Origin: a virus
Direction: 5' to 3' (one strand)
DNA: 64,000 nucleotides
IMG/VR virus record: IMGVR_UViG_3300006923_000020
Location: 1 to 64,000 of that record
In this document: one piece after another, positions 4,375-55,444 of the stretch
Layout of the letters: every line of letters starts with the position of its first letter
Position numbering within the stretch: position 1 is the stretch's first letter
Made by a program: the position numbers and the translations under genes
Notes under the pieces: model-generated
Seen by the model: only the letters and a program-made list of their open reading frames with translations
The model's database searches: none
Told to the model about the DNA's origin: nothing

Positions 4375-5148
4375 CTATATTCTCAACCCAGACATCTTGG
4401 ACATAACCGCACATTGAAACTCAGGAAATGTATCCAGTAACCATTCAAATGCAGCATTACTTTCAAACCACTCACCATGACTACGATGAACAACCAACTC
4501 TTTGTGGATCTTCTTTTCTGTCCATCCCCGCATCCCCTCCATGAAAGAAAAAACGAGGAACAATGGTGTCGGTGAGTCACCTCGTAAAGAACCCAAGCGT
4601 TGATACAATCTAGAACTTCTGCCTATTTTCACTCTCTCGCACTCTTTCGATAAAATAAAGTAAACATGCTCCCCATGTAGGGATTTACAAAGGAGCCTTT
4701 CTCTATCCCTTAGAATCCCATCTCGAAACATACGAGAACTAAGCTTCTCTTCCTTTCCCCAAACATAAAAATTCTTTTCCTCTCCAGAACAAACATACGA
4801 CCTACAAGCTGTACTGCAGCGCATCCAGTATTGGTTCCTATGCACAAACCACAGAACTCTGCTTTCTATGGCCTGCTCCCACAACAATGCTGTGCAACTA
4901 GGACATCTATCCGGAACAGGATCCCCGCTGTAAACAGGTGCGTCTGCAATAATCTCATGCTTTCCTATTTTGATAACACCTCCCACAGGTATTATCTCTT
5001 CTGTCTGCGGAAAGCTAATAGTATCCACATGTGCGATGCTTTTATCTGAAGTTCCTCCCAAGTCTCTAGATAAACGATGTGGTGCACAACCTATTCGCGA
5101 CTCTCGAGAAAGATGGCGACGAACTATCCCATTGAATAAGTAACTCAA
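4375..5148 (-). CDS. Zinc-finger plus GIY-YIG (Mug113/T5orf172-like) protein, paralogue 2
   Basis: 257 residues with the same architecture as its downstream neighbour: a CPSC...CSTAC...C zinc-type cluster in the middle, then HVYFILSKECERVKIGRSS, RLYQRLGSLRGDSP and TEKKIHKELVVHRSHGEWF. The start is odd: the only long-frame candidate is TTG at 5148, overlapping the upstream stop as TTGA, so it is probably translated by coupling. The two adjacent divergent copies suggest an old tandem duplication. Nuclease activity is expected from the family but untested. Confidence 0.68.
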   Translation of the reverse strand: MSYLFNGIVRRHLSRESRIGCAPHRLSRDLGGTSDKSIAHVDTISFPQTEEIIPVGGVIKIGKHEIIADAPVYSGDPVPDRCPSCTALLWEQAIESRVLWFVHRNQYWMRCSTACRSYVCSGEEKNFYVWGKEEKLSSRMFRDGILRDRERLLCKSLHGEHVYFILSKECERVKIGRSSRLYQRLGSLRGDSPTPLFLVFSFMEGMRGWTEKKIHKELVVHRSHGEWFESNAAFEWLLDTFPEFQCAVMSKMSGLRI

Positions 5149-5476: not shown

Positions 5477-6202
5477 TTACAAATTCAGTTTCGAGTAAAT
5501 ATTCTCCAAGTCATCCGCAATGTACCCACTCGCTTCGTCATCTTCTTCGCGTAAATCTGTAACTCGGGAATCCAACAACTCACGTAACAAATCGCGCTCT
5601 CGTCCCGTTAGCAGATCAAACTGAAGTTCTTTGATAGAACCAATCATTAATCGAGAATAGGAAAACCACAGCTTTTTCTCTGATTGAGTTAGCTCCCTAA
5701 AGTGTCGAGTATCCTCTAACTCTTCCCCTAATGCTTCCTGATAAGCTTCCACCCAATTATTCTGCAGTAGACGAGCTATTCGATACTTCTGAGACTCAAT
5801 AATGAAATCCAAACGATCGGGATTCTCCAATACAAATCTGTGATCCTTTGGAAAATTCTCTCGAGGAGGCATATCCGACAAAGGATGATTGCCTCGCTCA
5901 TCCACAAGCCCACAAACATCACATTCATGAACAGTGCTTGCATGAACAGTGCTTGCAGGTCTTAAATTTATATCGTGTCTCGTGCAAAGCATTGCTCCAC
6001 GAGGGCACTCTCTACAAGGATAGGGAGATTGGACCGAACTATACCTCTTCGGATCAGACGTCTCTCCGGTATTACCATCATCCACATGCCGCAGAAGCTC
6101 AGATTTCCCACCCCCACCACAACTACTACACACCCCCGTCATAATAACGTTATCTGATGTCCGTTTCTCAAAGCCACACTCGCACTTGAAAATATTACTC
6201 AC
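5477..6202 (-). CDS. Cys-rich hypothetical protein
   Basis: About 241 residues from GTG at 6202, chosen because GGAGG lies 5 nt upstream; a GTG at 6214 is also in frame. Several CxxC/CxC pairs (KCECG, CSSCG, CRECP, CDVCG) indicate one or two zinc-binding modules in the N-terminal half; the C-terminal half is helical and acidic. A 15-bp tandem duplication gives the repeated peptide ASTVH ASTVH. Function unknown; protein or nucleic-acid binding is the obvious guess. Confidence 0.6.
   Translation of the reverse strand: MSNIFKCECGFEKRTSDNVIMTGVCSSCGGGGKSELLRHVDDGNTGETSDPKRYSSVQSPYPCRECPRGAMLCTRHDINLRPASTVHASTVHECDVCGLVDERGNHPLSDMPPRENFPKDHRFVLENPDRLDFIIESQKYRIARLLQNNWVEAYQEALGEELEDTRHFRELTQSEKKLWFSYSRLMIGSIKELQFDLLTGRERDLLRELLDSRVTDLREEDDEASGYIADDLENIYSKLNL
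5926..5955. repeat. 15-bp tandem duplication inside a gene
   Basis: CATGAACAGTGCTTG occurs twice back to back, keeping the reading frame and adding ASTVH to the protein. It looks like a recent replication-slippage event. Confidence 0.85.
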
Positions 6203-6213
6203 AGAAACCTCCA

Positions 6214-6423
6214 CTACTCACTTACTTGGCGTTCAATGGAATAAATCACACTGTCATCCCTTCTCTCTCCACTCGGAACACCACACTCCATTGAACAAGA
6301 ATGACCACCCCCTCCCGTCGCCCAATCTCGTCGCAAACCTTCTCGAATTTTCTCCGCACGCTCTGCTGGAGTCAAGGCATACCAAGGCTCTAATAACTCT
6401 TCCATAATCATTCTTCTGCTCAT
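6214..6423 (-). CDS. Small hypothetical protein
   Basis: 69 residues, with a helical N-terminus (EELLEPWYALTPAERAEKIREGLRRDW) and a GGGGHSCSMECG segment. GGTGAG precedes the ATG. It ends just before the Cys-rich gene downstream. Function unknown. Confidence 0.5.
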   Translation of the reverse strand: MSRRMIMEELLEPWYALTPAERAEKIREGLRRDWATGGGGHSCSMECGVPSGERRDDSVIYSIERQVSE

Positions 6424-7316: not shown

Positions 7317-7606
7317 CTACTTACCCCTATCTTCTTTAAAGAAAGACATTTTTTTCCTTCTTGACCACACCAACCATGGCTTCTTACTTAAAGCGTAGTT
7401 TGAAAAGTCATGATCATCCGTTATCTCGCAAACCAACTGCAATGGGCACTGTGGAAGAGTTGTTTCAATAGTCGGAAGCTCCACCTCCACTATGAAAAGA
7501 CCTGTGTTTGCCCCCAAAAACTCATCCAACTCCCACAAAAACTCTTCACCGTCTTCGTTGATGCTCCTAAAGCCGTAACGAACCTTCTCTCTATCTCAAC
7601 ACCCAT
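7317..7606 (-). pseudogene. CYTH-domain gene with internal deletion and frameshift
   Basis: The ATG at 7606 opens MGVEIERRF, the EIERRF signature that begins CYTH-domain proteins (adenylate cyclase IV/triphosphatase superfamily). At about 7580 the homology moves to another frame: RYGFRSINEDGEEFLWELDEF then GANTGLFIVEVELP and EITDDHDFSNYAL, which is the C-terminal part of the same fold. A normal domain has roughly 100 residues between these parts, so the core (most of the beta-tunnel ligands) is missing and the ends are out of frame. The first frame stops after about 38 codons; the second is open to 7317. I read it as a decayed gene; a short expressed remnant is possible. Confidence 0.6.
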
Positions 7607-7618
7607 ATCCCACCACCC

Positions 7619-7939
7619 CTATCCGTAACGTTGTTCATCTAAAAGATCTTCAAAACAGTCAACCAAACTATCTAATCCAGCAGTCCACGCTTCTTTTACT
7701 TTTCTATGCCCACCCGAACCAAACATCGCAGTCAGTCCCATACTCTCTCTCAAGGACCCAAATAACTCCTGCAACGCAATCATCTTCTCATCTACTACAC
7801 GATCCCACTCCTCCCCAAAATTCTCTCGAATCTCTCCCCACAACACACCCACATGAAAAATGAATGCACCATCCTTATCTGGCTCACCCAATAAAGATAA
7901 AATTTGTTCAAGACTATTTTCCAAACTCACCGTATCCAT
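7619..7939 (-). CDS. Hypothetical acidic helical protein
   Basis: 106 residues, mostly helical and acidic (SLENSLEQILSLLGE... LDSLVDCFEDLLDEQ). AGGAG precedes the ATG. It is the first gene of the leftward accessory cluster, about 70 nt downstream of a palindrome copy, so transcription probably starts in the large divergent region. Function unknown. Confidence 0.55.
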   Translation of the reverse strand: MDTVSLENSLEQILSLLGEPDKDGAFIFHVGVLWGEIRENFGEEWDRVVDEKMIALQELFGSLRESMGLTAMFGSGGHRKVKEAWTAGLDSLVDCFEDLLDEQRYG

Positions 7940-8299
7940 ACAAATTCTCCTTTTGTCTTTTTCAAATCAGTAAAAACACAACTCTTTCATTAACTTCTAA
8001 ATAAAAAAACTTTAGAGTCTAAAGATTCAACCCAAAAACCAACAAGAGCAGGAACACTCCTCCCAAAAAACAATAATCCCCACCGATCTCTAAAAGATCA
8101 CATCACCCCAAACACTAAAACATCTACCCTCAAACACCACTGCCACAAACAACTAAAGCTAAAATAACCACCCACTAAAGCCCCGTTTTATCAAACACCC
8201 CTAAAGACCCATGGTTTTATTAACTTGACGCTTCTCATATCCCCAATCTAGAGTCGTCCTCATTGTTGTTATGTTTGGTAGATGCTTCCCAAAAAAAAT
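7940..8299. other. Non-coding leader region, C/A-rich on the plus strand
   Basis: No convincing gene. It holds one palindrome copy (8007-8027) and an unusually C- and A-rich plus strand. A TTGACG at 8225-8230 followed by TAGAGT after 18 nt could be a weak sigma70-like promoter reading into the structured region to the right; this is a low-confidence pattern match. Confidence 0.4.
8007..8027. repeat. Dispersed 21-bp palindrome (one outer mismatch, G centre)
   Basis: The core CTTTAGAGTCTAAAG is intact, with the outer left arm reading AAA instead of AAT. It lies about 70 nt upstream of the first leftward gene and is the only copy next to the large non-coding region. Confidence 0.85.
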
Positions 8300-9610
8300 C
8301 AGCACCCCTCGGATAGGGCGACCCCGGCTTAAACGAAAAAAGCCACCCTAGAGTATGGCAGCTTCTTTCTAGTTGCTTGTACAAAACCTAACCGAGTAAA
8401 GAAAGGAAGCACAAACTACCCGAACAAGATTAGAGTAAGGAGATCGACAAGAAATGTCAAATGTTTTCTTCAACTCTGCAAACTCCCTTGCAGAGCCACT
8501 TCTCTCTTGCAATGAGAAAGAAATGATGAAGAATACAAATCTCTACAACACTTCTCGCAAAAATCCTCTCCCGGATGAGAAGGACCCTACCGTTCGATTT
8601 GGACCGAATGTATTTCATTGCGACTCTAACCTTGAACAACAATACCACCTAATCCCCACTACCCCCCACCAATCATGCAATGACAACGACTCCACCCGCG
8701 TGGCCAAAATTGGAGTCAACTATCCAATTGCACATTTCTCTACGATTCTCCAAAAGCAACACTTCATTGGCGAAGCGCTGCGGAAAATTATACGGCAATT
8801 GCATAATGGGCAACTGAGAGGCCCACCCCTCCGATTCTGCAGTACCTCCTACAAAATGACCCTTGCCCCCCGAGGTCCAGAGACAACAAACAGTTATTCT
8901 CCAACAGGCAACACCACACCGTCACCCACATCACATAAACTTTTGTCCTCCAGAAGAAAACCAAACCACGGTGCGAACAAAAGTAACACCAATACCTCTT
9001 CTAGAGCGTTATGTGATCGCATGACACCGAACAACCACCCTGCTTGTGGACGAACGTATCTGCAGACGCCCTCTGGTAAAAAAAACTGCACACTTATGGG
9101 GAAACCACAACTCTGCAAAGAGTTGCTACATAGATAAGGGAACAAGTAACAAAGTGGCTCTTTTTTCGATTACACACGAGAATGATAACGAACTAGACAC
9201 AAAACAAGTTCGCCCTCATACCTCACCATCCCTAAAAAGACACCCACTCTGATTGTCAGTCTTTGAGTTTCTTTGGTCATTTCTTCTCCGATAGGTCGTG
9301 AAACTCCTCCGGGAGTTACCCCCCAAATCCTATCCTACAAGCTCCTGACAACACCTCTTCAAAACTTATCGAACTATCCCGATAGCACAGCACCCGATCT
9401 GTACCTCTTTTTTTGCACTGCACCACGAACAGATCAACACCCCCTTTGGCCTTGTATTGGTTGTACCAATCAACCCATACGCCTAGCTGAAATCAAGAAG
9501 AGAAAACACAACACTAAAACTAGTTTCTCACATAAGTCAGAATCACCTTAAGTCATCCTTAACTTAAATTATCCCTGCCTTATTTCTTAACTAGTTCTAA
9601 TCTCCCCTCC
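8300..9610 (+). ncRNA. Candidate large structured RNA
   Basis: This span lacks a credible protein but contains many stem-loops, read directly: 8361-8370/8400-8410 (10 bp, one bulge), 8474-8481/8488-8495 (8 bp, 6-nt loop), 8551-8556/8577-8582 enclosing 8563-8566/8573-8576, 8591-8596/8605-8610, 8688-8694/8711-8717 (7 bp), 8939-8946/8977-8984 (8 bp), 9108-9113/9120-9125, 9189-9194/9207-9212, 9236-9241/9259-9264, 9302-9307/9312-9317, 9396-9402/9429-9435 (7 bp), 9452-9461/9465-9473, 9518-9525/9589-9596 enclosing 9548-9553/9562-9567. One G-U pair (in 8591-8610) works only on the plus strand. Phages carry giant RNAs such as GOLLD and ROOL; whether this belongs to either is untested. Ends and strand are approximate. 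Some 6-bp stems are expected by chance. Confidence 0.4.
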
Positions 9611-9785
9611 CATCAATTCTCTTCTTCTGATTAATTATTCTAATTTAAAATTTAGTGTTTTTTATCAGTTCTGCTCGGCCTCTCGCTTCGCTCTCTCTAT
9701 TTCACGCCAAAAAGGGGGGAGTGCGTCTTCTGGATTCCTTGCATTTCGACCTTTTTAGTATTTTTAGACCGGGCTCAATCAGACC
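9611..9785. other. AT-rich spacer before the rightward operon
   Basis: Very AT-rich at 9625-9670, then a CT-rich stretch (9678-9705) and a run of six G near 9713-9719. It probably holds the start site for the rightward genes, but I cannot pick out a convincing -35/-10 pair. No gene seen. Confidence 0.35.
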
Positions 9786-10352
9786 ATGATGATAAATCGA
9801 AAACAAAGAGACGATGATACTATCACCCACATCCTGGCTATTAGTTTCAAGAGAGACAGTGAAACAGAAAGAAACTTAAACATGATCCTCCAAGATGGTC
9901 CGTACAAAGACTGGGGGGATATGTTTATGAATTTGGCAGAGCTTGCCTTTTTCATTATCGACCGTAGAAAAAATGGATATAAATTCTACCTAAGAGAGAT
10001 TGGTCCCAATCAACCCTTTGTGGAGATACGCCAGCTTCCTGGTCCAGATCCCGATATAGAAAATCTCTTTAGACAAGAAGAAGAGACTGATATAAAATTG
10101 CTCGACTTTGTTTATAAAGATGATGTGGGTAGAGAGAAATCTCTTTTATCGTTATCCAAGGATGATGAAGACAATCCTGTGAATGAGCCTATGCCGGATG
10201 GACTATCTCAAGACATAGGTTCACCCGAGAATCTTCTTCTTCAGATCGATCCAGAAACGTTGCTAGGTATGAAGATATCGTTAGATCTTTCCTGGTATGA
10301 AAGAATCTGGTTCAGTTTTCGGCTCATGGTAAAAATAATCTTTAGACTCTAA
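9786..10352 (+). CDS. Hypothetical protein, first gene of rightward operon
   Basis: 188 residues, unrecognised. ATG codons at 9786 and 9789 lack a strong Shine-Dalgarno. The middle (FFIIDRRKNGYKFYLREIG...VEIRQLP) and the aromatic amphipathic C-terminus (WYERIWFSFRLMVKIIF) resemble the next gene (EFIVLRQEEGCRLCIQTP...VEGLP; WWVYVTNWLRKIF), so the two may be diverged paralogues. The last codons and the TAA stop are supplied by the 21-bp palindrome. Confidence 0.6.
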   Translation: MMINRKQRDDDTITHILAISFKRDSETERNLNMILQDGPYKDWGDMFMNLAELAFFIIDRRKNGYKFYLREIGPNQPFVEIRQLPGPDPDIENLFRQEEETDIKLLDFVYKDDVGREKSLLSLSKDDEDNPVNEPMPDGLSQDIGSPENLLLQIDPETLLGMKISLDLSWYERIWFSFRLMVKIIFRL

Positions 10353-10357
10353 AGATT
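10337..10357. repeat. Dispersed 21-bp palindrome (perfect, C centre)
   Basis: Perfect copy in a rightward operon, showing that the element is not tied to the leftward late genes. It encodes the last residues (IFRL) and the stop of the upstream gene and lies 27 nt before the ATG of the next, upstream of its GGAG. Confidence 0.92.
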
Positions 10358-10384
10358 ATAAAATTCAACATTGGAGTATGTTCT

Positions 10385-10762
10385 ATGAAACTGATAATGG
10401 GTAAAGATTCCATCCAGAAAATGGATGATTGCGTAAAGCTGACAACCCTCAAGAATCATGCGGACTTCATTGGCACTTCCTGTGCAGTAATGGAGTTCAT
10501 TGTTCTTCGTCAAGAAGAAGGGTGTCGGCTATGCATTCAAACTCCTCGTGGAGACATCTTGCCTGTGGAGGGACTTCCTAAAAATTTATCTTGGAAAAAA
10601 TCTGGGAAGAGAGAAAGAACTCTTTCAGTTTTTGATAATGTTATCGAGGTTTCTTTTGGCGAAAGTTCTTGTCTTGAGGTTGAACCAGTTCCGACAAAAA
10701 CAAGTTGGTGGGTTTATGTTACTAATTGGCTTAGGAAAATATTTAGCCTCAAGAGCAAATAA
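10385..10762 (+). CDS. Hypothetical protein, possible paralogue of upstream gene
   Basis: 125 residues. TTGGAG lies about 9 nt before the ATG. The beta-rich middle and amphipathic Trp-rich C-terminus (SWWVYVTNWLRKIFSLKSK) resemble the preceding protein, suggesting membrane-surface association or a shared fold. No known motif. Followed by DUF1643 after 15 nt. Confidence 0.55.
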   Translation: MKLIMGKDSIQKMDDCVKLTTLKNHADFIGTSCAVMEFIVLRQEEGCRLCIQTPRGDILPVEGLPKNLSWKKSGKRERTLSVFDNVIEVSFGESSCLEVEPVPTKTSWWVYVTNWLRKIFSLKSK

Positions 10763-10777
10763 CAACAGAGTACACAC

Positions 10778-11425
10778 ATGGAACAGCGGCCCTTATTTGC
10801 AAACCTTCCTATAATCCCTGCAACAGAGGGCATAGCCTACTATCACAAACACGCCGTATTTAGCTCGTGCGGGGCATATAGGTGGGTTTTGTTGCGTCGA
10901 TGGGATAGCGCTATCGGTCGCCTACCCAGAGTCCTCTGGATAGCTCTCAACCCGTCCACTGCTAGTGGCGAAGAAGATGATCCAACGCTCAGACAAATAG
11001 TGAGCTTTTCGAAGCGTGAAGGCTTTGGAAGTCTTATGCTTTGCAATCTATTTGCTTTTTGCTCAACAGACCCAAAGGCCCTCAATGAAGATGCCATTGA
11101 TTGTATAGGCGATCTATGTGACGCCTATCTCTATTCATCTGCCGCTTTATGTGATGCTGTGATCGTGGCGTGGGGAACAAATGTGGAAGGTTATGAAGAA
11201 AGGGCAAAGGCTATTGTCTCGCGCTTAAGCAAAACACAGAAAGTGTATTGTCTTGGGAAAACAAAGGATGGATTCCCAAAGCATCCACTCTATCTACCCA
11301 AAGATGCCCCGCTTAGAATCTTTGCGAGACCAAAAGCAAAATGCCTATCCGCTACTGTTGAATCGGTAGGTAGAAAATACATACAGAAAATTTCTAGAAG
11401 GATACGTTATTCCATACGCAAGTAG
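10778..11425 (+). CDS. DUF1643 family protein
   Basis: 215 residues matching the DUF1643 pattern in order: CGAYRWVLLRRW, then WIALNPSTA followed by EEDDPTLRQ, then LMLCNLFAFCSTDPKAL, then VIVAWGTN, and a C-terminal YCLGKTKDGFPKHPLYL. The NPSTA, DDPT, NLFA, AWG and HPLY blocks are all present, so the domain looks complete. The biochemical role of the family is not established to my knowledge. The phage copy lies in an accessory operon with Cys-rich proteins and MazG. The C-terminal 40 residues are basic. Confidence 0.85.
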   Translation: MEQRPLFANLPIIPATEGIAYYHKHAVFSSCGAYRWVLLRRWDSAIGRLPRVLWIALNPSTASGEEDDPTLRQIVSFSKREGFGSLMLCNLFAFCSTDPKALNEDAIDCIGDLCDAYLYSSAALCDAVIVAWGTNVEGYEERAKAIVSRLSKTQKVYCLGKTKDGFPKHPLYLPKDAPLRIFARPKAKCLSATVESVGRKYIQKISRRIRYSIRK

Positions 11426-15747: not shown

Positions 15748-18582
15748 CTATGTCCTGTGAGTGTTGTAGATATATAATAGGTTTTCATTACTATCATCAC
15801 CAAACCATATTTGAAAACCGGGAGACACTGCCAACTGGCCATGGTTTATATGTCCACCCGTGTTTTTTGTTCCATTTGTGACGTCGTATGGTGTGTGTGT
15901 AGGGCTTCCCTCCACATGATTTCCAGAAACTTGATTTTCATGACAATTATTGAGGTCGAATCCTATAAATAATGGATTTTTAGCGACATTACCAGTGATT
16001 GTGCAGTTTTTTGCGCCCAGGCCATTTGGTGAATTAAGTGAGAATATGGGATTACCTGCAAAGCCACGATAACAACTTGCGGCATAATTATTAGAAATAA
16101 CACAATTCAAAACGTCCGCAAAAACAAATCCTGCATGACATCGCTCGACGTGGTTTCCTGAACAAATAATGCCAGATCCTTTATTTACAACAATTCCATG
16201 ATTCCCTAACGGTGTCCCGAAAATTCCAAAATATCTATTACTAGTTATCATGCTTCGCCTGGGTCCACTTGACGAAGAAGATAGAAACTGAAATCCAATT
16301 AAAGATTGTTCACCCTCATTACCTGTAAACTCTAACCCCACTAAATTAGAAACTAAGACACAGGCAGGTTGTGCATTCGCCGAAACAGATAATTGTGGGG
16401 ATGATGTAAACGAACAGTTTTTTATACTTCCATCTCCAACCCCACTTATCCATAACCTTGCCTTTGATGAAGCACCTCCTCCTAAAGAAACTTCCAAACG
16501 ACTATTTTCAAGATGAGACCATCGCCATTCACTGGCCATTATCCCCGCAATGGTCACTTCTCCTCGTATTTCTAAATCAGAGAAGACTGTTTTTAAGATA
16601 GATGTTGCTTTCAGTATATAATTATTTTTCGCCGCATCATTCAAAGTTGTTGATAATTTGCAAGTTCTCCACGAACAATTTGTTTGAATCCCAGAATTTA
16701 AACCTTCTCCTGCAACGCGAAAAATACATTTTTCAAAAAGACAATCTGTAATATCACCCAAATCTAATGTTGAAGTCGTTAGACCAAGATTTTGTCCACT
16801 GGTATCATTCCAGTAAAGTCCATCGAATATACAATTGATGAATCGTATATTCGAACAACCAACCATTTTAAAGATCTTGCCCTTACCCGTAAACGTCAGG
16901 TTCCGAAATTCAATATCAGAGCAATTACTTAGATCAAAGATTATGTGTTCGCCTTGAGTGTCGTCTTGTGTTCCATAAGAAAGTGTTGTTTGAATTGCAC
17001 TTTCTCCTTCAAAGATAAGTCCATGAGCACTACTTAATGTAAACAAAGATGTCTTGGGGAGTTCTGCATCAAAATTGTGAATTCCGCGACGAAAACGAAC
17101 AGTTCCACCTTTTCGGGTATTAGCAACATAATCAAGGAAGTACTTTTGTTCTGCAAAGGGTCCAAAGGTATCTGCAGGAAGCTGTGTGGTTGGATTGCCT
17201 GTAGCAGCATCTTTTGTGTCATTGGGGGAAATCGTAAGAGCTACAGACTTGTTGCCATCTAAACGACTCCGCAGAGTAGAAAAGCTTTGAGTGTTGTGGG
17301 CGTCAACCATAGCCTCCCAAACATCTTTATCCAGCGCATTTAAGCCCCTTTTGCCCGACGAAGGCGTGGGGTGCGCCAACCAGTTTATATTTCGTTGCTG
17401 GATGATTGTGACAGACGGATTCCCTGCAGGGAGTTCTTCCCATTTGGGAATATTGCTCTTACTTTGGATATAGACGCGAGTAACGCCCCCGCCATCCGTC
17501 GCATCGTTACCCATAATTCGAACATAAAAGCCCGACCACGCCCCGCTTGTTATTTGGAAGGTGCATCCCATGAAGTCGTCTTGTCTGGCGACGTGCGCTT
17601 GTGATTGGGGGCTATTATCAATCAAGTCTTGGATATCAATATACTGCCAGTCTGGATCCACAGCATTTATTTTTGCCCCCATTGTAGGACCCAAGTTTGA
17701 TGCGCCAACACCATGCTTGATTTGGCTAATAGCAGTCGCCAAAAAGTCCACCAAGCTGGCTATGTCTCTCATCCAGTGATCTGAAGTCGCATCCCCGATG
17801 ACTTCATTCAACTCACCAAAGAGCATCGGTGGGACGAGTGGCTCAAATAAACGTAGTCGTTGGTCTGTGGTTTTCAAGGCGCGGATAATATCGTAACCAC
17901 CCACCTGTGTCTTCACTTCACCGTAGCCAATGGACTGCATAAAGCGATGCTGACCAGTTGGTGTTGTCACTGAGATAAGATCATTTTTATCTTTTTCGGT
18001 ACTGGCCACACCCTGCATAATCCGACCCAGGTTATCTGTTCGGAAAACACTATGAGGGACAACAAGCGTATCATTATCAGAGAACCTCGCGGGAGTGTAT
18101 CCAGCGTCACCCCTGTTCCCGATAGCATTCTGCTGTATTGGCTGCAATACCCTCCAAAACAAGGTTTTTCTTGTAAAAGTTTGGGCAATCGCAACCTCCT
18201 GACCATCTGGGACAGGATCAGGGTTATCTACTTGTGTGTCCCAGAAGACTCTTTGGTCTGGATCAGAGTTCGCGAAGAAAAATTCAATCTCTAACCAAAA
18301 CTCCTGATTTGTTCCACCCAGGGTAATTTGTTGTGAGTTAGTTCCGTCCGGAGAAGTAATAAACCCACCTGTCTGATCGTAGGCAAAGCCATTGTAAATC
18401 TCGATACGACCAGTGTCTGCACTCTGTTGAGGCAGAACTTTTGTCCTAAACCCACTCAAAACACCTATTCCAAGCGACGACTGCACGAATCTTCGCAAGA
18501 CCTCTCTTGGGTATTCATCCACCGCAAACAAGAAATCTTGAAGATTTACACCTTCTGCCGGGTGAAAAAGCGGAGTTTTCAT
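15748..18582 (-). CDS. Tail spike with right-handed beta-helix
   Basis: 944 residues. The N-terminal part (1-200) looks like a virion-attachment module. Residues about 500-900 show the short, repeating beta-strand turns of a right-handed parallel beta-helix (FDLSNCSDIEFRNLTFTGKG; KMVGCSNIRFINCIFDG; ITDCLFEKCIFRV; CTITGNVAKNP; NNCHENQVSGNHVEG), as in pectate-lyase-like phage depolymerases and spikes. A palindrome copy lies just upstream. Likely adsorption or polysaccharide degradation; catalytic residues cannot be assigned by eye. Confidence 0.8.
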   Translation of the reverse strand: MKTPLFHPAEGVNLQDFLFAVDEYPREVLRRFVQSSLGIGVLSGFRTKVLPQQSADTGRIEIYNGFAYDQTGGFITSPDGTNSQQITLGGTNQEFWLEIEFFFANSDPDQRVFWDTQVDNPDPVPDGQEVAIAQTFTRKTLFWRVLQPIQQNAIGNRGDAGYTPARFSDNDTLVVPHSVFRTDNLGRIMQGVASTEKDKNDLISVTTPTGQHRFMQSIGYGEVKTQVGGYDIIRALKTTDQRLRLFEPLVPPMLFGELNEVIGDATSDHWMRDIASLVDFLATAISQIKHGVGASNLGPTMGAKINAVDPDWQYIDIQDLIDNSPQSQAHVARQDDFMGCTFQITSGAWSGFYVRIMGNDATDGGGVTRVYIQSKSNIPKWEELPAGNPSVTIIQQRNINWLAHPTPSSGKRGLNALDKDVWEAMVDAHNTQSFSTLRSRLDGNKSVALTISPNDTKDAATGNPTTQLPADTFGPFAEQKYFLDYVANTRKGGTVRFRRGIHNFDAELPKTSLFTLSSAHGLIFEGESAIQTTLSYGTQDDTQGEHIIFDLSNCSDIEFRNLTFTGKGKIFKMVGCSNIRFINCIFDGLYWNDTSGQNLGLTTSTLDLGDITDCLFEKCIFRVAGEGLNSGIQTNCSWRTCKLSTTLNDAAKNNYILKATSILKTVFSDLEIRGEVTIAGIMASEWRWSHLENSRLEVSLGGGASSKARLWISGVGDGSIKNCSFTSSPQLSVSANAQPACVLVSNLVGLEFTGNEGEQSLIGFQFLSSSSSGPRRSMITSNRYFGIFGTPLGNHGIVVNKGSGIICSGNHVERCHAGFVFADVLNCVISNNYAASCYRGFAGNPIFSLNSPNGLGAKNCTITGNVAKNPLFIGFDLNNCHENQVSGNHVEGSPTHTPYDVTNGTKNTGGHINHGQLAVSPGFQIWFGDDSNENLLYIYNTHRT

Positions 18583-37049: not shown

Positions 37050-39143
37050 TTATTTTTCTGCACCACCCTTTCTCACAACACCCACACCCTTTCCATAAAC
37101 CTTTACATCGACCTGTTTATTCTTTTTTAGAGTTCTATATATGCTCGTTAATAATCGAAGCATTTTTTCTAAACCTGTAGCACTTCCTTTGTCTATAGGC
37201 ATACTGCCTATAGTGCCATACTTAGCTACTATCTTATGTGTATTTTGAGTAGTGTAAGGAAGTTGACTATAGGCTTCGGTTACCATTTTCTTCGATTTCT
37301 CCAGACCAAAACGTTGAAGCATATCCATTGCCCCTCCTCTTGAAAGTCCTCTGCTTATATCTACTTCTGTTCCGGACTTCTCATTGTACACATTAAGGAA
37401 CGCTCCCCACCCATTGCTCATACCAGAGAACATATTGCTAGAACCACTATACGCTTTTGCAAAAGCACCAATCCCTTGCAAAAGCTTTGTCACCGATCCA
37501 GAAATCGCCTGTATGCCTGTTCGCACAGGCCCTGCAATGGCTCTCATTCCATCTCTAATTAGAGGAACGAGGGTTTTTATATCTTCGAACATTGGTCCCA
37601 CCATGTGAAGCATCGATTGCTGGATGCTATCAATCGAGAACAATGTATCCAGCTGATTAGAACCAAGATTGGCCATTCGATCAAAACGTTTTGCCAAAAT
37701 AGCTGGGAATCCTCCAAACTTCTTCATCGCTGCCCACGCTTCCCTTTCTGCCCTGGGTCGGCTCTCTGCTTTTTCTTTCTCCTTTATGTCTTGAATCTTT
37801 TGTCTCGCTTCTTCAGGCGAAAGCTTTCCTTGCTTCTGCTGCAGATAAACCTTGCTAAACTCTTCTGCCATATGGATTGAACCCATCCCCATCCCTTTGA
37901 ATGCAAGCTTACCCGCATCCGACAAACCTCCTTGCTTGTTTGACCCATACTCACTGCGAAGCTGCTCCATGATTGCCATCATGTTGCCACCACCCGCCCC
38001 TTGTTCCTGACGCTTCAACACGTCAATGAGACCGGCTCCCTTGCCAAACCCAAAGGCCCTCATCGCAAAGGCTTGTTGGACTCCTGTGGCTCCCTGGATA
38101 GCGGAATGCGCCTGAGCCAAAGCCCCACCCGCAAAACGTCCCCTCATTCCTCCCAGTTGTAGTCGCGCCAACTCTTCGGCAAATCCCTTGTAGCCATCTT
38201 TACCAGGAGTAATCCGTATCTGCTGTTCAGATAGTTGATTAGCCGCCGCGAGAAACTCTCCGATCCTTGCGCGTTCGAGTCCGGTCTCAACTCCTAAAGC
38301 CAAGGATTCAGATATTGTTCGCATCATGGCGTCAGAACCTGCACCCCCTCTCAGGTTCTGGCGAGACATAATGCCTCCACCAAAAGCTAAGGATTCTTGA
38401 CCCAATCCTCGCATTAGCTTTAGAGCATTTCTTCCTCCTCTTCTCCCTCCAGTAATTCCCTGTCTAGCCGCATTTGCTTGAATCTGCGCAGCTTCCGCAG
38501 AGTTATATGCATAGTCCGCTCCGTGAGCATACTTTGCTTTTGGGCCTAAAACCGCGCTTCCTTCCATTCTTGCCCTGGTTTGCTTCTCATAAGATCCTAT
38601 CGCTTCTCGGAAAGCAGAAACAAGAAATCCTAAAATACTACCCGCACCAAAGACACCCGCTTTTATTGCATTCCGGCTAGTCCATCCACCCGCAGTTTTA
38701 GCACCTCGGGCCATCCGACCACCAATGCCAACCTTACCCACACCAGGACCACGACCACCACCACCACCTGATTGATGTCGACGCTTGGATGCAGCATATC
38801 TCTCGTCTGCCTTCCTTGCTTTATCAGCACTGTCCATCAATTTGTTAAATTGTTGTTCCGCAGTCCTCGCTTCTTTTCCCAGAGCCTGAACAGTCTGTTG
38901 CATACCACGCAGACCCTGCTGCGCCTGTTGGCCTTGACGACGTACATTTTGCTTCATTCCCTTCCTTGAAGGAAACATCACTTGACCAAGAACTCCAGAA
39001 TTACCACCACTACGATCCATATAGCTCATTGTGGTCTGCACAGTTCTCCTGGCAGAACGTAGAAAATTTTGTCTCGCCATCCTTTCCGACGCTGCGTCTA
39101 GCGTCAATATAAGAGGTACTTCAATTCCTTCTTTCGTAGCCAT
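37050..39143 (-). CDS. Tape-measure protein candidate
   Basis: About 697 residues from ATG 39143 (GAGGA upstream; an in-frame start at 39161 is less likely). Helix-rich, Gln/Gly/Arg-rich N-terminus (QQAQQGLRGMQQTVQALGKEARTAEQQFNKLMDSADKARKADERY), a glycine-rich basic linker (SGGGGGRGPGVGKVGIGGRMARGAK), a hydrophobic stretch (AGVFGAGSILGFLVSAF) and further helices. Place between chaperones and hub is diagnostic. It is short for a jumbo phage, predicting a tail of about 100 nm if the usual 0.15 nm per residue applies. Confidence 0.7.
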   Translation of the reverse strand: MATKEGIEVPLILTLDAASERMARQNFLRSARRTVQTTMSYMDRSGGNSGVLGQVMFPSRKGMKQNVRRQGQQAQQGLRGMQQTVQALGKEARTAEQQFNKLMDSADKARKADERYAASKRRHQSGGGGGRGPGVGKVGIGGRMARGAKTAGGWTSRNAIKAGVFGAGSILGFLVSAFREAIGSYEKQTRARMEGSAVLGPKAKYAHGADYAYNSAEAAQIQANAARQGITGGRRGGRNALKLMRGLGQESLAFGGGIMSRQNLRGGAGSDAMMRTISESLALGVETGLERARIGEFLAAANQLSEQQIRITPGKDGYKGFAEELARLQLGGMRGRFAGGALAQAHSAIQGATGVQQAFAMRAFGFGKGAGLIDVLKRQEQGAGGGNMMAIMEQLRSEYGSNKQGGLSDAGKLAFKGMGMGSIHMAEEFSKVYLQQKQGKLSPEEARQKIQDIKEKEKAESRPRAEREAWAAMKKFGGFPAILAKRFDRMANLGSNQLDTLFSIDSIQQSMLHMVGPMFEDIKTLVPLIRDGMRAIAGPVRTGIQAISGSVTKLLQGIGAFAKAYSGSSNMFSGMSNGWGAFLNVYNEKSGTEVDISRGLSRGGAMDMLQRFGLEKSKKMVTEAYSQLPYTTQNTHKIVAKYGTIGSMPIDKGSATGLEKMLRLLTSIYRTLKKNKQVDVKVYGKGVGVVRKGGAEK

Positions 39144-53892: not shown

Positions 53893-55392
53893 TTATTGGG
53901 CAGGATAAATGGGAGGATTTGTTTCGGATGGAAGCGGTTGACTGTCATCGCTTGGGGTGGGAGAGGCGTTGGCAACACCCGTTGCTTCTCTTGAAAAATC
54001 AAACTCTCTTTCAACCGCGGCTTCTTGCGGCGAAAGCCTGCGTTCCCCTCCGTCTCCCTGTCCCATGCCCTTGTCCATTTTGAATACGAGAGGAGGAAAT
54101 TCGTTCTCTCCGTCTTTTTCTTTCTCTTCTTGTAACTGCGACTTGTGTACGATTGTGAGGGGTTGCATGGACAAATCCTTGTCTTCTTCGGGTTCTTCTA
54201 AAAGTTCCTCTGCCGTGTTTGATTTTAGCAGATCCGAATCAGGAAATCCTTTTGCTTGCCAAAGCCTTTGGTTAATGACGTCCCAATTTATTATTTGAAA
54301 AAAATCCTCCACATATGCTTCTTTGTCGGGTCCATACTCAGCGAGGTAGGCGTGCTCCCATAGATCTATTCCTATGAGAGGGATATCACCAGGAATACTT
54401 GGGTTGTCTGGACCCACATCATACATAATTTGTGGATTGCCATGATTTCTCAAGGTATACATCGCCAACCTATCCGTGGCCCCACGGTATACCAACCACA
54501 ACCATCCCGATCCCACTAAACGATTCGCTTCTCGTTTAGCACTAGCAATCATTTCCTCCATGCTACCAAATAAATCTTTTATCGCATTTCTTAAAAGATC
54601 GGAGATAGATGCTCTAGATGTGTTTTTCTCCTCTTCTTCTTCAGTTCTCTCTTGAGGTTGTATAGAAGCCCAAAGGAATGAATGATTAATATCTCCACCC
54701 AAATAGTGAATGAGTTTATCTACCAATCCCGGTGGCATCTGAGAAAGAGATATCATAATAGACAGAGGAGAAAGCCCCTCCCATGCAGTTCCTTTGAGAG
54801 TTTCCTCAAACATCTCTACATATTTTCTATGAAGTACTTCATAGTGATGTCGTAGACTGCTCTCCTTAAACACAGGACCAAATGCATCATAGGCATAAGG
54901 AAAGGCAGGCATAGAGATTTCAGAATTATCCGATGACTTCCGAAGCAATTGGAAAGATTTCCCCATCTCTTCTTCTTCCATCATTTGCTCTTGCATCATC
55001 TCTTCTTCAGGATCAACACCAATACCGTGCGATGCCGCCACATCGTCTTCTAGTTGAGCGAGCCTTTGCTGCTTTGCTCCCTCAATAATAGCCTCGTGGG
55101 CTTCGTATTCCTCGTCTTGTCTTTGCCGAAAAGTATAGGCAACTTCTGCTATGTCATCTTGCGGCCACCCATCCATCTTCATCTGACGCAAAATCTCTAC
55201 ATGCTCTGGCCAAAGGCGATGGAAAATTCCACCCAAAGCTTCAAGCTTCTCTGTTAGAGGATGTATTCGATATCTTGGAGCATCCCAAAGGTGCGCCTCA
55301 ATAGGATGAATCCCCCATCCTGGTGGTGGTTCTCCTCCGAGAGCATTCACTAAACCTTCTTGCTGCTCTTCGTTTCCACCATTGGGTTTCAT
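53893..55392 (-). CDS. Virion-type protein with complete Fe/Mn superoxide dismutase domain
   Basis: About 499 residues from ATG 55392 (GAGG upstream; another ATG three codons earlier at 55401; residue numbers count from the latter). Residues 164-384 are an Fe/Mn-SOD: MPAFPYAYDAFGPVF, LRHHYEVLHRKYV, GGDINHSFLWASI, FGSMEEMIASAKREANRLVGSGWLWLVYRG, PLIGIDLWEHAYLAEYG, INWDVINQRL. Ligands His186, His240, Asp346 and His350 are kept, and Tyr194 matches the gateway Tyr. The gateway His (E. coli His30) is Leu here, and His320 lies where MnSOD has its outer-sphere Gln. The SOD is flanked by an acidic helical N-terminus and a disordered C-terminus containing PPLVFKMDKGMG. The enzyme converts superoxide to H2O2. 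Neighbouring the portal, it may be a packaged virion enzyme. Confidence 0.88.
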   Translation of the reverse strand: MKPNGGNEEQQEGLVNALGGEPPPGWGIHPIEAHLWDAPRYRIHPLTEKLEALGGIFHRLWPEHVEILRQMKMDGWPQDDIAEVAYTFRQRQDEEYEAHEAIIEGAKQQRLAQLEDDVAASHGIGVDPEEEMMQEQMMEEEEMGKSFQLLRKSSDNSEISMPAFPYAYDAFGPVFKESSLRHHYEVLHRKYVEMFEETLKGTAWEGLSPLSIMISLSQMPPGLVDKLIHYLGGDINHSFLWASIQPQERTEEEEEKNTSRASISDLLRNAIKDLFGSMEEMIASAKREANRLVGSGWLWLVYRGATDRLAMYTLRNHGNPQIMYDVGPDNPSIPGDIPLIGIDLWEHAYLAEYGPDKEAYVEDFFQIINWDVINQRLWQAKGFPDSDLLKSNTAEELLEEPEEDKDLSMQPLTIVHKSQLQEEKEKDGENEFPPLVFKMDKGMGQGDGGERRLSPQEAAVEREFDFSREATGVANASPTPSDDSQPLPSETNPPIYPAQ

Positions 55393-55444
55393 TGGACACA
55401 TCCTCTAACAAAAAATAGAAATTTATTTCTCTTTCGAGAAGTAA

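Follow-up and report, generated by a model that had tools for sequence, protein, structure and literature searches.

A candidate minus-strand long non-coding RNA in a 1.85-kb gene-free gap of an uncultured phage

The DNA analysed here, called the window, consists of bases 1-64000 of a phage contig of 65,904 bases (G000). Its genes encode the tail and baseplate of a myovirus (sheath, baseplate wedge, tail lysin), and ORF calling with codon statistics gives a coding share of 92.5% for the record, in which a single gap exceeds 545 nt. This gap is located between a minus-strand gene (7619-7939) and a divergent plus-strand gene (9786-10352), and the question is what it specifies. The original prediction placed a giant structured RNA in it, at 8300-9610. 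The features discussed are collected in Table 1.

Coding signal and origin of the contig

A base-by-codon-position signal was absent throughout the gap, in each 300-nt stretch (p 0.12-0.87) as well as in its ORFs (p 0.33-0.62). No frame in the gap matched Pfam or PHROGs, and none resembled other genes of the contigs. The claim that 8300-9610 contains no credible coding was thus borne out, although it had overlooked an open frame of 227 codons; other open frames of 60-92 codons are also retained in the gap. A length of 227 codons was reached in none of 1000 shuffles (99th percentile 167), and AAGGAG, a motif enriched upstream of the genes of this phage, occurs 11 nt before the frame. Both observations favour a real gene, fast-evolving or overprinted, with AAGGAG as its ribosome site. 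However, its codon positions are alike in base composition (chi2 5.3, p 0.5, 228 codons), its codon usage differs from that of the phage genes, and neither relatives (IMG/VR scan included) nor a Pfam or PHROGs family was found. The frame was judged non-coding and is treated as such below. More than 500 nt without coding potential, as observed here, is a criterion for phage long non-coding RNAs.

Near the gap are encoded a T5orf172/MUG113 (GIY-YIG-like) domain protein (4375-5148, minus) and a DUF1643 protein (10778-11425, plus). In a run of structural genes, 53893-55401 (minus) encodes a 502-residue protein that includes an entire superoxide dismutase of the iron/manganese type (both Pfam domains, E 1e-24 and 9e-9).

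IMG/VR was queried with 9786-10352, 10778-11425, 15748-18582, 5477-6214, the 227-codon frame, the sheath gene and the palindrome CTTTAGA(N)TCTAAAG. These scans yielded only two contigs, G002 and G001, and two distant matches to single genes (37% and 31%); no homologue of the gap was found across the phage, plasmid and IMG/VR searches. G002 corresponds to 36.4-62.7 kb of the window at 95-99% identity and stops short of the gap region. G001 (IMGVR_UViG_3300025133_000029, 161 kb) carries replication proteins, terminase, major head protein and a tRNA island, and has no gene in common with the window. The palindrome scan of IMG/VR recovered these two contigs only, and a genome collection gave one isolated match. 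Because the gene sets of G000 (tail) and G001 (head, replication, tRNAs) are complementary and the rare palindrome is common to both, the two contigs are probably pieces of a single phage type with a genome of at least about 227 kb. The head protein of G001 is about 41-43% identical to those of SPO1-like Bacillus phages, and the source is best read as a large myovirus with a distant relationship to the SPO1/Twort group (Bacillus phage SPO1, staphylococcal phage K).

The palindrome occurs in 68 exact-core copies (0.002 expected), 16 in the window and about 52 in G001, mostly intergenic and nearly always with C or G at the centre. Complementarity of its flanking arms is slightly above chance. 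It may be a terminator, a processing hairpin or a protein site. Strand assignment from the T-runs beside it was rejected, as no orientation rule emerged among about 70 copies. The region of G001 at about 131-161 kb, mostly on the minus strand, is similar to the part of SPO1-like phage genomes that carries the early genes, and contains about 45 sites of the promoter-like motif GTAAATGCT(C/T)TGCTTTTTTATA, many of them upstream of small genes and some adjoining the palindrome. G001 also encodes a 694-residue UvsX-like recombinase (L050:9455-11539, plus) that matches HNH endonucleases at about residues 282-345; this HNH segment beside the recombinase domain is possibly an intein or a homing insertion.

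Table 1. Coordinates of the gap, of the features within it and of the loci compared with it
Feature	Position	Strand	Remark
Gene-free gap, 1846 nt	7940-9785	none	ORF calling with codon statistics; no codon periodicity
Candidate long non-coding RNA, approximate bounds	8290-9640	-	hairpin excess; strand and ends inferred
227-codon ATG open frame, judged non-coding	8454-9137	+	length, codon-position, relatives and family tests
Terminator-like hairpin CGCCCU AUCCGA GGGGUG then CUGAUUUUUUUU	8290-8320	-	likely 3' end
Terminator-like 13-bp hairpin GAAAGAAGCUGCC/GGUGGCUUUUUUC (3 G-U)	8335-8369	-	U6 in 3' arm
12-bp hairpin UGGCUCUGCAAG GGAG UUUGCAGAGUUG	8471-8498	-	8-bp core is the predicted 8474/8488 stem
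12-bp hairpin UCAUUUCUUUCU CAUUGCA AGAGAGAAGUGG	8496-8526	-	G-U-allowed hairpin scan
11-bp hairpin GCAGCGCUUCG CCAA UGAAGUGUUGC	8756-8781	-	G-U-allowed hairpin scan
9-bp hairpin AUUUUGUAG GAGGUA CUGCAGAAU	8834-8857	-	G-U-allowed hairpin scan
8-bp hairpin GCAACUCU UUGC AGAGUUGU	9107-9126	-	plus-strand reading is a GCAA tetraloop
9-bp hairpin UUUAAGUUA AGGA UGACUUAAG	9547-9568	-	G-U-allowed hairpin scan
Palindrome copy CTTTAGAGTCTAAAG	8010-8024	none	71 nt upstream of minus-strand gene 7619-7939
Palindrome, 16 window copies	5459, 8010, 10340, 12967, 18611, 23204, 25405, 30860, 34680, 39168, 42485, 45689, 53814, 56027, 57652, 62253		
Phage K lncRNA2	NC_005880.2 about 38,024-38,566 (L063:1525-2067)	-	PMC11598898, PMC7698491, PMC9241854

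Local hairpins and their strand

The region contains 21 Watson-Crick stems that are 6 bp or longer and have loops of at most 40 nt, versus 7.9 +- 2.6 in dinucleotide shuffles (none of 100 reached 21), and 7 that are 7 bp or longer versus 2.0 (0 of 100). Ordinary windows of this phage exceed their own shuffles about 1.35-fold; the factor of the region is 2.2 (rank 2 of 97). The stems of the original prediction are therefore more than chance and present as placed, but the lengths of 7-10 bp given for them were overstated: no perfect local stem with a loop of at most 40 nt is longer than 8 bp, and 9-10 bp are attained only with G-U pairs. Recovered as predicted were 8474-8481/8488-8495 (8 bp, 6-nt loop), 8688-8694/8711-8717 (7 bp), 8939-8946/8977-8984 (8 bp) and 9396-9402/9429-9435 (7 bp), together with the CTCCC of the loops 8482-8487 (ACTCCC) and 8567-8572 (TCTCCC). 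The stem proposed at 9452/9465 exists but has 6 bp (ATTGGT/ACCAAT) and lies at 9456-9470, and the pairing at 8361/8400 is present but broken into two 5-bp pieces plus a bulge. The folding energy of 8270-9260 is below that of shuffles by z -5.0 on the plus strand and -5.7 on the minus strand, values that do not separate the strands. In 400-nt windows it reaches or approaches the background extreme only at about 8100-8300 and 9300 (plus), and only around 8300 and 9300 (minus).

G-U pairing is a property of the transcribed RNA strand only. Hairpins whose loops have at most 12 nt were counted at three score thresholds, admitting G-U pairs, and compared with 400 shuffles per strand. On the minus strand we observed 39, 21 (those scoring at least 14) and 10 hairpins versus 21.1, 8.5 and 3.3 in shuffles (0 of 400 each), and on the plus strand 19, 9 and 3 versus 10.8, 3.7 and 1.3 (equalled in 4, 7 and 48 of 400). 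Among 328 equal-length stretches of G000 and G001, the minus strand of the region ranks first by hairpin count (z 5.7) and 13th by the sum of its eight best hairpins (12 stretches are as high), the plus strand 28th and 108th, respectively. As a control, the same kind of statistic favours the transcribed strand for both phage K lncRNAs: the top-8 sum was reached in 0 of 200 shuffles for the sense strand of lnc002 and in 2 of 200 for its antisense strand, and in 1 and 27 of 200, respectively, for lnc001. A strand-specific hairpin excess, which is a criterion for phage long non-coding RNAs, is thus present on the minus strand of the gap. The RNA strand is probably minus, because the G-U-allowed excess sits there, and not plus, the strand whose A-rich loops had been described at the outset.

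The hairpin at 9107-9126 has CAACTCTGCAAA in common with 8471-8482. Terminator-like sites number 6 in 7500-10500 versus 3.1 +- 1.6 expected, and as a class they are not significant.

Long-range helices and known RNA families

The original prediction looked to GOLLD, ROOL, OLE and HEARO. An Rfam search with 1391 bases left these and all other families unmatched at E up to 10; its only three hits scored far below the gathering threshold and were to unrelated families (best SNORD48, E 0.016, 22.2 bits, gathering 36). Duplex scans of either strand gave no helices beyond shuffles for spans of 60-150, 150-300, 300-600 and more than 600 nt. The same scan detects the closing helix in phage K lncRNA2 and three relatives, and it is less sensitive here, where the sequence is rich in G and U and its shuffles themselves attain about -31 kcal/mol. 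A closing helix 8330-8342/9160-9172 (12/13-bp inverted repeat; about 20 bp on the minus strand with G-U pairs) was considered and rejected, shuffles being equal or better: its duplex has -27.3 kcal/mol versus a shuffle best of -32.0 +- 2.4, and the comparison was repeated by distance class. What stands of the predicted giant structured RNA is its non-coding character and local hairpins above chance, but neither an Rfam match nor a detectable long-range closing helix, as would be expected of an ornate RNA, accompanies them, and a "giant ornate RNA" is unproven for this gap.

Readings of the gap and known phage RNAs

The best-supported reading, to which we give an even chance, is that the gap encodes a minus-strand long non-coding RNA of an SPO1-related phage, comparable to the lncRNAs of Kayvirus. 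Such an RNA is plausible because the distantly related Kayvirus phages have abundant intergenic lncRNAs, and it is a reasonable prior for an orphan gap of 1.85 kb because of the SPO1-like head protein and the abundance of the staphylococcal lncRNAs. We infer the transcription, strand, ends, trans action and function of the candidate as follows. It would be about 1.0-1.3 kb long, be transcribed leftwards from near 9600-9640 and end at the terminator-like U-run hairpins near 8337 or 8290. On the model of the Kayvirus lncRNAs, it would have a transcription unit to itself and build up as an RNA rich in hairpins, which would act in trans in the course of infection, either on the expression of host or phage genes or as a scaffold. 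The start of the RNA is the weakest point of this model, since no promoter was recognised: the gap region contains no sigma-70-like promoter better than chance, and the GTAAATGCT promoter motif of the phage has zero copies in 7940-9785. It is possible but doubtful that the minus strand of about 8290-9640 encodes a large structured phage RNA that belongs to a new class, its sequence being unrelated to GOLLD, ROOL and the lncRNAs of Twortvirinae.

Among the other explanations, a long regulatory intergenic region would combine divergent promoters, the leader of 7619-7939, terminators and ordinary mRNA-leader hairpins. The location in a divergent gene arrangement, the palindrome copy that precedes the minus-strand gene (other copies are also near gene starts or ends) and the undetected closing helix all agree with it; we nevertheless hold it to be rather unlikely, as 1.85 kb far exceeds every other gap in the record and the hairpin excess is spread across 8335-9568, away from gene starts. 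An excess on one strand is also not a product of decay, which argues against decayed or recently replaced genes, or an acquired fragment, with no present function. Persistence of the 227-codon and shorter frames, the lack of relatives and a base composition that tracks the strand bias of the adjacent minus-strand genes speak for such remains, but the frames have no codon structure, family match or resemblance to genes of the contigs, and this origin is unlikely.

A replication origin, a packaging site or another element acting as DNA is very unlikely. The divergent position and a shift in GC skew at about 10 kb are consistent with it; however, this shift tracks gene orientation, iterons are absent, the repeats come in two copies that are identical over 12 nt at most or share 73% over 26 nt, and the hairpin excess is clearest with G-U pairs, which are relevant to RNA only. 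Given the tests described above, a real gene at 8454-9137 is highly improbable.

The long non-coding RNA that we favour can be compared with several known systems. GOLLD, of more than 800 nt (PMC12286853), and ROOL resemble the candidate as large phage non-coding RNAs. Both are usually found near a tRNA island (PMC12286853), whereas no tRNA was found in the record that contains the gap, a tRNA island being present in the companion contig G001. Neither of the two matches the gap in Rfam at E up to 10, and in a further difference from ROOL no closing helix is detectable in it. OLE, HEARO and other large Rfam RNAs resemble the candidate in size class only and have no Rfam match there.

The intergenic lncRNAs of Kayvirus (Herelleviridae) are the most abundant phage transcripts (PMC11598898, PMC7698491, PMC9241854), accounting for as much as 27% of the phage reads (PMC11598898); two lncRNAs of staphylococcal SPO1 relatives together represent 10.6% of reads (PMC7698491). 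We aligned phage K lncRNA2, which is reported to be among the most abundant transcripts of phage K, across 11 Twortvirinae phages (loci L065-L074 and phage K). The consensus structure has 121 pairs and is closed by a 15-bp helix; for 74 of the pairs, at least one sequence has both bases changed with the pairing retained. lncRNA2 matches no Rfam family at E up to 1 and appears to be a large ornate RNA that has not been listed.

A covariance model (R1) of the 140-nt lncRNA2 core matches only the phage K control (160 bits), neither the window nor G001, and the gap is therefore not claimed as a member of this family. The two also differ in that they have no sequence similarity, that lncRNA2 adjoins tRNAs whereas the record of the gap has none, and that the strong, covarying helix closing lncRNA2 has no detectable counterpart in the candidate, for which the noise floor is higher in G/U-rich sequence. 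They are alike in being intergenic, non-coding and located on the minus strand, with a hairpin excess on the sense strand, and the Kayvirus/Twortvirinae group has an SPO1-like head protein in common with G001. The lncRNAs of SPO1-related phages are very highly expressed and their function is not known. If transcribed, the candidate would be a further case of large non-coding RNAs in these phages and would extend this kind of RNA to an uncultured phage group without a recognisable relative of the known families.
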